The position numbers and the translations under genes were made by a program. This document shows, piece after piece, positions 43,873 to 49,643 of a stretch of 64,000 nucleotides of DNA. The stretch lies in contig NZ_CP064048.1 of assembly GCF_020923495.1 (NCBI RefSeq), positions 2,853,001 to 2,917,000 on the forward strand, read 5' to 3'. Below the pieces are notes generated by a model that saw only the letters and a program-made list of their open reading frames with translations, made no database searches and was not told the DNA's origin. Position 1 is the stretch's first letter; every line of letters begins with the position of its first letter. The DNA is from Brevibacillus sedimenti. GTDB taxonomy: Bacteria; Bacillota; Bacilli; Brevibacillales; Brevibacillaceae.

Positions 43873-45009
43873 ATGATCAAGACGATACTGTTTGACGTCG
43901 ATGGTGTCATGTTGAGTGAAGAGCGCTATTTTGATGCATCCGCCCTGACTGTCTGGGAAATGCTCCACAGCCCGCGCTATCTCGGCTTGGCCGGGGATAC
44001 GTTCACGCCCAGTCCGGATGAAGCGGAAATTCGGCGCGTCCGCAAGCTGGTCTTTGCCGACGATGAAGTGCTCTCCTTTATCAAGTCGCGCGGCATCAAC
44101 TCCAACTGGGATATGGTGTTCCTGGCCTTCGCCTACCAGGTGATCCGGCTGTGCGAAGCTCTGAAACCGACACTGGGTCAGCAGGCCACCGATCTGCTAG
44201 CCGGCCAGCTGAACCGCGCCCAGCTTGCCCGCCTGTCGGAGTGGGCAAAGGCGTACGTCCCTGACTTTTCCATTGAATACGCCAAGTTTACCAAGGATTT
44301 TGCGCGAGGCTCCGCGCAGAAAGCGGAAATGCTGCTCTATCTGAACCAGATTGCATTTGAGCGCTGCGGCGTCGTGACCAATGCCTTCTCGCGCAACAGC
44401 GACTTGTGGCGGCTGTGTCAGGAGACGTTCCAGGAATGGTATCTGGGCGATGAACGTGTGGCTGCGTCCATCGGCCGAGAAACACACCAGCCGGGTAAAA
44501 AGGGGTTTTTGACCGACGAAATCCCGATAGTCAGCCCGGAGGAACTGCAAAAGCTGTTTCGCACGTTGAAGGAAAAGGGATATACGCTTGGCATCGGCAC
44601 GGGCCGTCCTACTATTGAGACGCATGTTCCGCTCAGCGAACTGAAGGTGCTGGAATTTTTTGATCCGGAACGGGTGGTGACCGCCAGCCACGTGTTGGAA
44701 GCGGAAGAGGAGATTCCGGCCAGCGCGCCGCTGTCCAAGCCGCATCCGTTTTCCTATCTGAAAGGGCTGCTGGGTCTGTCCACGCCCAATCGCGAAGTGC
44801 TTGACCAATCGCTGCCGATTGCCAACGGCGACGAGGTGCTGATCGTCGGCGATTCGCTCGCCGATCTTATGGCGGCCCGCGCCATCGGCTGCCGCTTTGC
44901 TGCTACAATGACCGGTTTGACCGGACAGGAAGCCCGCCGCAAGTTTGAAGACGAACAGGCGGATTATATTCTGAACGATGTCCGCGAAGTTCTCTCCATC
45001 CTCGAATAG
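43873..45009 (+). CDS. HAD family hydrolase
   Basis: This 378-residue protein has the HAD motif I LFDVDGVML (nucleophile D8), a later SKPHPFSYL segment and motif IV GDSLADLMAA. It is longer than usual phosphoglycolate-type HAD enzymes because of a helical insert of about 150 residues after motif I. The substrate is unknown. It follows resE by 20 bases and may be cotranscribed. Confidence 0.82.
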   Translation: MIKTILFDVDGVMLSEERYFDASALTVWEMLHSPRYLGLAGDTFTPSPDEAEIRRVRKLVFADDEVLSFIKSRGINSNWDMVFLAFAYQVIRLCEALKPTLGQQATDLLAGQLNRAQLARLSEWAKAYVPDFSIEYAKFTKDFARGSAQKAEMLLYLNQIAFERCGVVTNAFSRNSDLWRLCQETFQEWYLGDERVAASIGRETHQPGKKGFLTDEIPIVSPEELQKLFRTLKEKGYTLGIGTGRPTIETHVPLSELKVLEFFDPERVVTASHVLEAEEEIPASAPLSKPHPFSYLKGLLGLSTPNREVLDQSLPIANGDEVLIVGDSLADLMAARAIGCRFAATMTGLTGQEARRKFEDEQADYILNDVREVLSILE

Positions 45010-46536: not shown

Positions 46537-48120
46537 CTACAGTTCGATCTGCGTCACGCTTTTGACTTCCGGCAGCTCGCCCATGCTGTCCAGCAGTTCG
46601 GCGGAGACCGGCTTGTCGACAGAGAGCATCATGATCGCGTCGCCGCCAATGTCACGCCGTCCTACCTGCATGGTGGCGATGTTGACGTCGTTGTTGCCGA
46701 GAATCGATCCGACGCGGCCGATGACGCCGGGACGGTCGTTGTGGTGGATGTACAGCAGGTACCCTTCCGGAGCCACGTCGATGGCAAAGTCGTCGATCTT
46801 GACAATTCGCGCTCCGTAACCGTTGAGGCGGGTACCGGCGACGGTGCGCGTCTGCTGTGTGGTCTTCAACGTGACTGTCAGCAGGTTGGTAAAACCGCGA
46901 TTGTGCGCCGATTTTTTCTCCGTGACCGTAATGTCGCGCACTTTGGCCAGAAGCGGCGCATTGACGTAGTTCACTTCTTCGCCCAGGCGGAAGGAGAGTA
47001 CACCTCTCAGCACGGTTCTTGTCAGCGGTGCCGTGTCCACATCGGCCAGTTCGCCGCTGTACGTGATCGCGATTTCCTGAATCGAGCCGACCGTCACCTG
47101 TGCCAGGAAGTTCCCCAGCTTTTCGCCGAGGGTAAAGTACGGCTGCAGGCGTTCCATCACGTGCGCCGGAATGGACGGGAGGTTGACCGCGTTTTTGAAC
47201 GGCTCGCCGCGCAGCACCTTGAGAATTTCGGCCGATACGTCAACCGCCACGTTCTCCTGTGCTTCCTGTGTGGAGGCGCCCAGGTGGGGAGTGACCACGA
47301 CCTGCGGCAGGCCGATCAGCGGGTTGTCTACCGGCGGTTCTATTTCAAACACGTCCAGGGCAGCCCCTGCCACTTTCCCGGTCAAGATGGCTTCATACAG
47401 CGCCTTTTCGTCGATAATGCCGCCGCGGGCACAGTTGATGATGCGAACGCCGTCTTTCATCTTCATAAACTCGCGGGAGCTGATAATATGGCGCGTCTCC
47501 TTCGTCAGCGGAGTATGGACGGTGATGAAATCAGCCTGCCGGCAGATGTCGTCGATCGTAGCGTGGGTGACGCCCAGCTTTTTCGCCCGTTCTTCCGTCA
47601 GGAACGGATCGTAGGCCAGCACGGTCATGCCGAACGCCTTGGCTCGCTTGGCCACCTCTGTGCCGATCCGGCCCAGGCCGATGATGCCGAGCACTTTGTT
47701 GTTCAGCTCTACGCCCTGAAAGCTTTTTCGGTCCCAGGTTCCATCCGTCAGTTTTTTGTGTGCCTGCGGGATGTTCCGAGCGACGGCCATCAGCATGGCG
47801 AAGGAGTGCTCCGCCGTGGAGATCGTGTTGCCGTCGGGAGCGTTGATGACGACAACCCCGGCTTCGGTGGCCGCATTGATGTCGATGTTGTCCACGCCCA
47901 CGCCGGCGCGGCCGACCACTTTCAGTTTCTTGCCGGCAGCCAGCACCTCAGCGGTCACCTGCGTCTGACTGCGGACGAGCAGGGCGTCATAGTCCCCGAT
48001 TACGGAAAGCAGATCGGTGGGGGAGAGGTTGGTTTGACGCACCACTTCCACGTCGGGGGCGTCAAGCAGTTGCTGAATGCCGTGTTCGCTAAGCGGGTCG
48101 GTAATCAGGATTTTATACAT
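46537..48120 (-). CDS. serA: D-3-phosphoglycerate dehydrogenase
   Basis: SerA catalyses the first committed step of serine synthesis. It has 527 residues: split catalytic domain, NAD fold (IGLGRIGTEVAKRAKAFG near 146), an intervening ASB-type domain and a C-terminal ACT domain (LLYIHHNDRPGVIGRVGSIL) for serine feedback. NCARGGIIDE is conserved. ATG 48120 follows AGGAGG; upstream in-frame codons lie inside the preceding gene. It overlaps that gene by eight bases, so both are controlled by the T-box leader. Confidence 0.95.
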   Translation of the reverse strand: MYKILITDPLSEHGIQQLLDAPDVEVVRQTNLSPTDLLSVIGDYDALLVRSQTQVTAEVLAAGKKLKVVGRAGVGVDNIDINAATEAGVVVINAPDGNTISTAEHSFAMLMAVARNIPQAHKKLTDGTWDRKSFQGVELNNKVLGIIGLGRIGTEVAKRAKAFGMTVLAYDPFLTEERAKKLGVTHATIDDICRQADFITVHTPLTKETRHIISSREFMKMKDGVRIINCARGGIIDEKALYEAILTGKVAGAALDVFEIEPPVDNPLIGLPQVVVTPHLGASTQEAQENVAVDVSAEILKVLRGEPFKNAVNLPSIPAHVMERLQPYFTLGEKLGNFLAQVTVGSIQEIAITYSGELADVDTAPLTRTVLRGVLSFRLGEEVNYVNAPLLAKVRDITVTEKKSAHNRGFTNLLTVTLKTTQQTRTVAGTRLNGYGARIVKIDDFAIDVAPEGYLLYIHHNDRPGVIGRVGSILGNNDVNIATMQVGRRDIGGDAIMMLSVDKPVSAELLDSMGELPEVKSVTQIEL

Positions 48121-49267
48121 GAGCAAAAAGCACCTCCTGTGCAGCTTTGACACCTGCTCCCAGCTCAACGGGAGCACCAATTTGACGAAGCGACAGTTCG
48201 AGGGCGGCAATCACCTGCAGCACGTCGAGCGGTTCGCAGTAGCCCATGTGGCCAATGCGGAAAATCTTGCCCTTGAGGTGCTGCTGGCCGCCGGCGATAA
48301 CAACGTTGTGGCGGGTGCGGAGTACTTTTCGCAGCTCCTCTGCGTCGAATGCTCCTTGGGGATCGCACGAGGTGACCGTCGGCGAAGCGTAGGCGTCCTC
48401 GGCCATCAGCGGCACGTTCAGCGCGCGCATCGCGGCGCGGGTCATGTCGCGCATCAGTTCATGCCGCTTGATGATGGCCGGCAGTCCCTCTTCCTCCAGC
48501 ATGGAGCAGACTTCGTCCAGACCGAATACCAGCGACACGGCTGGCGTGTAAGGCGTCGTGTTTTCGGCCAGGCTTTTGCGGTAGGCCTTCAAGTCGAGGT
48601 AAAAGGCCAGCGGCTTCTTCTGGTCAATCACCTGCCAGGCTCGTTCGCTCGCGGCCAGGAAGGCCAATCCGGTCGGAAGCATAAACGCCTTTTGCGAACC
48701 GGTTACTACGATGTCCACGCCCCAGGCGTCCATCTCGCAGGCGACCGCGCCCAGACAGCTTACCGCATCCACGATGAACAGGGCGTCCGAATGCTGGCGC
48801 ACCACCTGTGCCAGTTCGCGAATCGGGTTGAGCACGCCGGTCGACGTTTCGCAGTAAGTGGCGAATACGGCTTTTACCTGCGGCTTGTCAGCCAGAAACG
48901 CCTGAAGCAGATCCGGAGTGACCGCCTTTCCCCAGGGAACTTCCAGGCGGTGGGCAATGACGCCGTAGCGTTCGCAGATTTTGGCAAACCGTTCGCCAAA
49001 CGCGCCGCTTACCAGAATCACCGCCTCTTCGCCCGGCTGCAGCGTGTTGACCACGCTCATCTCCAATGCGCTGGTGCCGCTGCCAGCGAGGATGAACACG
49101 TCCTGGCTCGTGCCGAAGTACGGCTTCAACCGTTTGGCAGTGCGGGCGAACAGCTCGGAAAACTGTCCGCTGCGATGGCCGATCATCGGCTGGTTCATCG
49201 CCTGCTGGACGCGAGGGGGGATGGGGGTAGGTCCTGGTATGCGCAGGATCATTTTGTCTGCAAACAT
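48113..49267 (-). CDS. class V aminotransferase (serine-pyruvate / alanine-glyoxylate type)
   Basis: This 384-residue PLP enzyme of the AGXT-like class V family has PLP lysine K193 in GSQKAFMLPTG and a GSGTSALE phosphate cup. By family it could act on serine, alanine or glyoxylate; by context with serA it may supply the phosphoserine transamination step, since no serC is in the window. This is inference. The ATG start is behind AAGGAGGAG, directly after a T-box leader. Confidence 0.9.
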   Translation of the reverse strand: MFADKMILRIPGPTPIPPRVQQAMNQPMIGHRSGQFSELFARTAKRLKPYFGTSQDVFILAGSGTSALEMSVVNTLQPGEEAVILVSGAFGERFAKICERYGVIAHRLEVPWGKAVTPDLLQAFLADKPQVKAVFATYCETSTGVLNPIRELAQVVRQHSDALFIVDAVSCLGAVACEMDAWGVDIVVTGSQKAFMLPTGLAFLAASERAWQVIDQKKPLAFYLDLKAYRKSLAENTTPYTPAVSLVFGLDEVCSMLEEEGLPAIIKRHELMRDMTRAAMRALNVPLMAEDAYASPTVTSCDPQGAFDAEELRKVLRTRHNVVIAGGQQHLKGKIFRIGHMGYCEPLDVLQVIAALELSLRQIGAPVELGAGVKAAQEVLFAHV

Positions 49268-49297
49268 GGATTTCTCTCCTCCTTGACAAGTGCATAT

Positions 49298-49612
49298 AAA
49301 AAACCTCCCGTTCCCACACTGCTCCTGTTCGCGGAACAGTGAGGGACGAGAGGCTTGCTTCGCGGTGCCACCCTCATTCGTTCTTCTTCTCGCAAAGAAG
49401 AACCTTGCCAGGTACGAGACCTGTGAGATAACGGATCAACCGTTCGCGCCTACTGGATGCCCGGGACATCGGTTCAGCGCAACAACTCGGAAGTGCTCAT
49501 CCTTGGTGGGAACCACCGATTCGCAGCGACCATCGGCTCTCTGAGGGTTTCCCGTGCCAGGCATCTCTTCGTCATCGTTGTTGAAGTATTGAAGCTGTTT
49601 CAGATTTGTAAT
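49298..49612 (-). promoter_or_regulatory. T-box riboswitch leader, probably tRNA-Ser
   Basis: On the minus strand the leader contains the T-box AGGGTGGCACCGCG at 49374-49361 (perfect to consensus), a distal stem I loop resembling AGAGAGCCGATGGTCG near 49540, and a terminator (CCTCTCGT...ACGGGAGG then TTTTTT, 49353-49298). A serine codon AGC lies at 49497-49495 and UCC a few bases on, within the 3' side of stem I where the specifier is expected. Uncharged tRNA would favour antitermination and expression of the aminotransferase-serA operon. Confidence 0.88.
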
Positions 49613-49614
49613 TT

Positions 49615-49643
49615 ACAATATCACGAGGGTTTGCAGACGTCAA
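49615..49643 (-). promoter_or_regulatory. promoter of T-box operon
   Basis: TTGACG and TATTGT are separated by 17 bases on the minus strand, directly before the leader. Confidence 0.62.

Follow-up and report, generated by a model that had tools for sequence, protein, structure and literature searches.

Probable serine T-box control of serA and of an AGXT-type aminotransferase that very probably stands in for SerC in Brevibacillus sedimenti

How does a bacterium in which no SerC can be detected make phosphoserine, and how might it tie that supply to its need for serine? This question is raised by a locus in a 64-kb stretch of the Brevibacillus sedimenti genome (G000:C1:2853001-2917000; hereafter, the window), part of a 3.93-Mb, single-contig assembly that is 99.95% complete. 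Reading along the minus strand, the locus consists of a promoter-like site, a T-box leader, a terminator, a gene for a class V aminotransferase (AT), and serA. We consider it very likely that a serine-specific T-box here drives an operon of SerA and an AT that replaces SerC. This explanation is built on what the sequences themselves display, namely, the leader, its specifier, the order of the operon, the lack of a detectable SerC, the near-exclusion of AT and SerC across relatives, and swaps in place at the serA locus. The features of the locus are as follows.

49643-49615, minus strand: sigma-A-like promoter, TTGACG-17-TATTGT, from a consensus scan (9/12 matches, with TG before the second hexamer); weak evidence
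49584-49339, minus strand: T-box leader, from Stem I to the antiterminator (RF00230, model positions 1-219)
49497-49495, minus strand: specifier codon AGC (serine), by its column position in the Rfam alignment
49374-49361, minus strand: T-box sequence AGGGUGGCACCGCG, with UGGC predicted to base-pair with the terminal GCCA of tRNA-Ser
49298-49356, minus strand: intrinsic terminator competing with the antiterminator, from the RNA fold and a U run
49267-48113, minus strand: class V (AGXT-type) aminotransferase of 384 amino acids, predicted phosphoserine aminotransferase (SerC3)
48120-46537, minus strand: serA, 3-phosphoglycerate dehydrogenase of 527 amino acids (TIGR01327)
43873-45009, plus strand: HAD hydrolase of 378 amino acids, candidate phosphoserine phosphatase (SerB4), by PF00702 and HAD_2; a separate transcript

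The AT and serA frames, both on the minus strand, share 8 nucleotides, and AGGAGGTG lies inside the AT frame, upstream of the serA start. SerA matches TIGR01327 over its full length (737.5 bits against a cut-off of 454) and the AT matches PF00266 (95.8 bits against 21.5), which bears out the first-pass annotation's description of an AGXT-like aminotransferase overlapping serA. Promoter-like sites are weakly above chance in the window, with two found against 0.5 expected in shuffles. The locus is a new example of a known arrangement, which it confirms and extends, and not a new kind of system.

If the AT supplies phosphoserine, the first question is whether a canonical SerC is also present. The first-pass annotation had raised the prospect of a serC elsewhere; none was found in this 99.95% complete genome, where the SerC model TIGR01364, searched at E values up to 10, matched the window AT alone (31.3 bits against 443.6). 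The same model matched 12 of 14 control genomes, 4 of them over its cut-off, and Escherichia coli and Bacillus subtilis still matched at an E value of 1e-60. A SerC hidden among the 18 PF00266 places of the genome, the window AT included, was also considered and rejected, as none appears SerC-like by eye in its frame opening; three other such places (L027, L029, and L039) were scanned with Pfam as well.

The distribution of the two enzymes among relatives is evidence that one takes the place of the other. We searched 39 Brevibacillaceae genomes, including that of B. sedimenti, counting SerC as a match over the cut-off and an AT ortholog as a match at E values up to 1e-40. AT orthologs (74 to 100% identical) occur in 35 of the 39 and are absent from G014, G015, G016, and G035, and these four are joined by G008 as the only genomes with SerC, so that 34 genomes have the AT only, 4 have SerC only, and 1 has both (Fisher p 6e-5, uncorrected for kinship). 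Across the class, a sample of 160 genomes was used for both searches, with E values up to 1e-70 for the AT and up to 1e-60 for SerC. The AT was found in 65 of these genomes and SerC in 81 (71 over the cut-off); 62 have the AT only, 78 have SerC only, 3 have both, and 17 have neither (Fisher p 1.5e-24, again without a correction for kinship). Because five families (f1, f3, f14, f20, and f27) hold genomes of both the AT type and the SerC type, the exchange is likely to have occurred several times independently.

The serA locus of the four AT-less Brevibacillaceae adds a second line of evidence. In G014, G015, G016, and G035 a T-box stands directly before serA and the AT is absent, and the first three keep a full T-box that scores 98 to 103 bits. 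In these three genomes, 19 to 20 of the 21 nucleotides before serA match the last AT codons of a relative, against 5 of 21 in G035; part of this match is the ribosome site, and the remnant resembles a scar left by deletion of the AT. The serC genes of G014, G015, and G016 are located away from the serA locus, and G035 shows the order T-box, serA, serC, with no scar.

What kind of enzyme the AT might be can be approached through its sequence relatives. Among matches found with the AT protein, the nearest named relative is Brevibacillus thermoruber 423, at 97% identity. The protein is not a member of the SerC family, as it scores 31 to 32 bits with TIGR01364 against 443.6, and no NCBIfam model for AGXT or PucG was among its matches. 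By motif, we take K193 as the pyridoxal phosphate lysine. In an alignment of 90 rows, 66 of them distinct, the pair H31-R32 is invariant in 66/66 distinct orthologs; all nine paralogs that were taken (29 to 32% identical, with a PucG-like GQFD motif) have Gln-Phe at this place, and the four aligned SerC proteins (L120 to L123; weak blastp matches, E values of 2e-6 to 7e-4) have His-Arg at the corresponding one. The pair aligns with Tyr35-Arg36 of Arabidopsis AGT1 (phmmer) and, mapped through AGT1, with His41-Arg42 of E. coli phosphoserine aminotransferase; according to the available text of a review, the phosphate of phosphoserine is held by His41, Arg42, His327, and Arg328 (PMC12011608). The invariant His-Arg pair thus agrees, short of proof, with a phosphorylated substrate for the AT. 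Near-exclusive distribution, same-locus replacement, and the common His-Arg pair together lend support to the first-pass proposal that an AGXT-type enzyme may take the SerC step.

An AT with both activities, phosphoserine synthesis and a serine:glyoxylate or alanine:glyoxylate reaction, would overlap this explanation, and we regard it as a possibility of rather low probability. Class V enzymes often accept a range of substrates, and the AT belongs to the same family as AGT, but nothing in the analysis speaks directly for a second, glyoxylate activity.

That the leader of this operon is a T-box was the first claim made for the locus from sequence, and a covariance-model search confirms it. The leader scores 95.8 bits with RF00230 against a gathering score of 93 (E value 8.9e-20, full model 1-219), making it the sole match over the gathering score in the window, and the 14-mer AGGGTGGCACCGCG is located within it at 49374-49361 on the minus strand. 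The Rfam match contains the antiterminator pairing. The terminator hairpin at 49356-49300 folds at -38.5 kcal/mol (z -7.5) and is followed by a U run to 49298; a simple terminator scan of the stretch found no terminators and missed this hairpin.

In the specifier position, AGC is the codon in register, with UCC 3 nucleotides later and AGU a little further on. Both of the latter were considered as specifiers and ruled out by the Rfam register, by conservation, and by the mutations made in Paenibacillus polymyxa, as reported in the available text of PMC8002221. We extracted 87 leaders of AT genes from four locus sets (66 distinct, window excluded), and 62 of the 66 distinct leaders have a T-box, the remainder being L064, L067, L069, and L071. 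The specifier is AGC in 60 of these 62 and UCC in the other 2 (L063 and L065). The register was taken from printed Rfam alignments for the window, L093, L070, L098, L101, L063, and L065, together with the AT-less L104 and L105, and was read off the printed sequences by shared surroundings in the remaining leaders; in L152 and L160, a regular expression missed the codon, and the specifier was read from the printed sequence. No single base change turns AGC into UCC within serine, which argues for serine identity as the trait that selection maintains; in the leaders of relatives, it is held across two unconnected codon boxes. A T-box that answers an amino acid other than serine is therefore highly improbable: its only point is that reading out of register yields other triplets, and no support for it was found; it is opposed by a specifier of AGC or UCC in all 62 distinct T-box leaders and by the P. 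polymyxa mutational result (PMC8002221, available text). Serine codons had been noticed in the expected specifier region at first pass, where a specifier reading any other amino acid was held to count against the proposal; AGC in register and a serine codon in 62/62 leaders sustain that observation and support the suggestion that serine synthesis is controlled by tRNA-Ser charging.

These elements suggest the following mechanism. When tRNA-Ser is charged, the serine-specific T-box leader would end transcription early. Uncharged tRNA-Ser with the anticodon GCU would pair with the AGC specifier while its free GCCA end would pair with the UGGC of the T-box, so that the antiterminator would form and the two-gene AT-serA operon would be read. 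SerA would then convert 3-phosphoglycerate to 3-phosphohydroxypyruvate, the AGXT-type AT, in the stead of SerC, would convert 3-phosphohydroxypyruvate to phosphoserine, and the nearby HAD phosphatase would probably finish the pathway. We infer the tRNA binding, the antitermination, and the substrate of the AT; on the combined evidence of leader, distribution, and locus, it is very probable that the AT produces phosphoserine and that its operon is controlled by tRNA-Ser.

A number of observations weigh against this explanation, and the first of them concern the enzyme. The best NCBIfam models of the AT are aminotransferases, all below their cut-offs; it passes no NCBIfam cut-off at all, its best model is an aspartate-glyoxylate aminotransferase, and it scores 305 bits against a cut-off of 650 with the glyoxylate aminotransferase model BhcA. 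In Clostridioides difficile, an AGT-family aminotransferase gene adjoins an annotated hydroxypyruvate reductase and is discussed for serine production (PMC6110889, in the text available to us), so members of the family may work in a hydroxypyruvate route in other organisms. Such data could be read to mean that the AT is a serine:glyoxylate or serine:pyruvate aminotransferase linking serine, glycine, and hydroxypyruvate, with phosphoserine made by some other, promiscuous transaminase. The nearest sequence models and structures of the AT do include glyoxylate and serine aminotransferases, and the serine-using Arabidopsis AGT1, modelled to bind serine with Tyr-Arg, has that pair where the AT has His-Arg. 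The AT here is partnered, however, with a SerA that exceeds the phosphoglycerate dehydrogenase cut-off over its full length, and serA directly follows the AT in 85/85 examined loci. The absence of the AT, moreover, goes with the presence of SerC in several families and sometimes at the same locus, an exclusivity for which a glyoxylate enzyme offers no obvious reason. We judge this alternative improbable.

The 85 loci comprise 32/32 relatives from the protein search, 29/29 Brevibacillaceae, and 24/24 loci from the class-wide sample. The last are 24 further loci, 3 from Brevibacillaceae and 21 from other families, that were taken from the best-scoring genomes, and 35 of the 65 class-level AT genomes stand outside both the serA-adjacency and the T-box counts. 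The Brevibacillaceae adjacency count likewise leaves out 2 of the 35 orthologs (G026 and G032), and species recur between the locus sets, notably between the protein-search and Brevibacillaceae sets. A T-box, detected by motif or by covariance model, stands before the AT in 28/32, 29/29, and 24/24 of these loci, with several of the last below the gathering score.

The phosphoserine explanation must also accommodate exceptions in its distribution and in its leader. Both enzymes occur in G008, G095, G167, and G182, with G008 carrying AT-serA plus a serC on another contig, and 17 of the 160 class-wide genomes have neither the AT nor SerC. Four AT-serA loci (L064, L067, L069, and L071) have no T-box. 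Folded alone, the antiterminator does not exceed shuffles in stability (z -0.4), and Stem I does not form its canonical stem (z +1.2). Five tRNA-Ser genes were recovered (three GGA, one CGA, and one UGA), each ending in GCCA, and the T-box base that faces the discriminator, C in the window, would face their G; tRNA-Ser(GCU) is not among them and was not found by a tRNA model (58 matches), by ARAGORN applied to the surroundings of those matches (58 genes), or by two patterns. That 58-gene set is incomplete, however, and because other necessary tRNAs, including Ile(GAU) and Ala(UGC), are missing from it as well, no conclusion can be drawn from the missing tRNA-Ser(GCU). Of the 62 distinct T-box leaders, 38 carry C opposite the discriminator and 24 carry U; the UGGU of the latter could meet a G discriminator only through a G-U pair.

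Much of this arrangement has precedents. An AGC serine T-box on serA (PMC8002221) and SerC3 beside serA (PMC9026213) are already in print for relatives, in the available portions of both papers. The first of these, as far as its available text goes, reports that AGC is the working specifier of P. polymyxa serA by mutation and that the UCC and AGU behind it are not; it describes serine T-boxes of the AGC and UCC types on serA and of the UCC type on serC in two other Firmicutes and cites serA T-boxes in Bacillus clausii, Bacillus halodurans, and clostridia. The leader in the window resembles that of P. polymyxa, with AGC followed by UCC and AGU, a T-box, a terminator, and control of serA (PMC8002221), but the P. 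polymyxa leader controls serA with serC at another place in the genome, whereas here the AT gene is interposed between the leader and serA, and no SerC was found. The second paper, in the text available, predicts SerC3 with serA in Brevibacillus and others, and SerB4 beside serC3 and serA (PMC9026213). Our locus has the same gene pair in the same genus, with a PF00266 enzyme in the serA operon of a genome without SerC, a likeness of gene pair and genus to the published arrangement, whose example is A5I0W7. That study proceeds by co-occurrence and co-location over gut genomes, and its available text holds no occurrence of "T-box" and does not treat in-place swaps.

Enzymes outside the SerC family have been tied to the phosphoserine step elsewhere. 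Synechocystis Sll1559 (SerC2) is described as a class V phosphoserine transaminase outside the SerC family (available text of PMC9997740 and PMC9026213; original, Klemke 2015), and the AT resembles it in description, as a non-SerC-family aminotransferase predicted for this step. In Thermococcus kodakarensis, TK1548 is described as acting with 3-phosphoglycerate dehydrogenase between 3-phosphoglycerate and phosphoserine (PMC5120207, available text), and both it and the AT are aminotransferases tied to that dehydrogenase. The window enzyme also has a structural neighbour, as its best PDB match, 2dr1, has His-Arg-Ser as well. We take 2dr1 to be a Pyrococcus protein orthologous to TK1548, and to our knowledge a T-box is not expected in an archaeon such as T. 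kodakarensis.

Among the publications listed by our literature searches and in the text available, we found none that describes T-box control of SerC3-serA or an exchange of SerC3 with SerC; older T-box surveys may list such leaders (e.g., B. clausii and B. halodurans). Possibly new are the in-place swaps, the presence of a T-box on SerC3-serA, and the difference in specifier between serS and serA. The serS gene of the same genome (TIGR00414, 606 bits) has its own T-box (L001, G000:C1:1148517-1148746, plus strand), in which the codon in register is UCC. We tentatively suggest, as an idea that is more doubtful than probable, that the serS T-box is read through UCC by tRNA-Ser(GGA) and the SerC3-serA T-box through AGC by tRNA-Ser(GCU), so that charging and supply would be sensed separately. 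If so, induction of the serS and SerC3-serA operons could set in at differing degrees of serine starvation. Such an isoacceptor split could likewise explain the strict retention of AGC on the biosynthetic operon across Bacilli. In the same genome, 21 T-box matches (L001 to L021) were recovered at E values up to 0.001, 14 of them over the gathering score.

The consequences reach beyond a single locus. Many Bacilli show no SerC, and a pathway call based only on SerC would score them as incapable of serine synthesis. Distribution, swapped loci, and serine leader together make a strong comparative case for the AGXT-type enzyme as the phosphoserine aminotransferase of these Bacilli.

The final step would fall to the HAD hydrolase at 43873-45009, a candidate that fits SerB4 as described in the available text of PMC9026213, that is, a HAD protein extended at its N terminus. 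A search of the genome for canonical SerB (TIGR00338) gave 10 weak matches, the best at 39.3 bits against 144.15, and none at the window HAD. The hydrolase was matched in the fetched flank of 18/32 protein-search loci, where misses may lie beyond the flank, and partial matches stand at the locus ends of the AT-less L104 to L106; its distribution thus seems tied to serA and not to the AT.

Several individual loci deserve mention. The serC of G008 (L119, G008:C2) has PEP-synthase-like and transporter-like frames nearby and a transposase-like fragment further off, as judged by eye from frame openings. A Chloroflexi contig from a metagenome-assembled genome (L071) carries an AT that is 45% identical, followed by a serA match at the locus end, with no T-box; the AT-serA pair may predate its leader or move more readily than it does. 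The order T-box, AT, serA also occurs in a record under the name Fictibacillus gelatini (L057), where 77% identity makes it as close as some Brevibacillus and points to either a transfer or a misnamed record. In Ornithinibacillus halophilus (L064), where the AT-serA pair lacks a T-box, S-adenosylmethionine and manganese riboswitches (1905-2356) located ~1.6 to 2.1 kb upstream of the pair probably belong to other genes.

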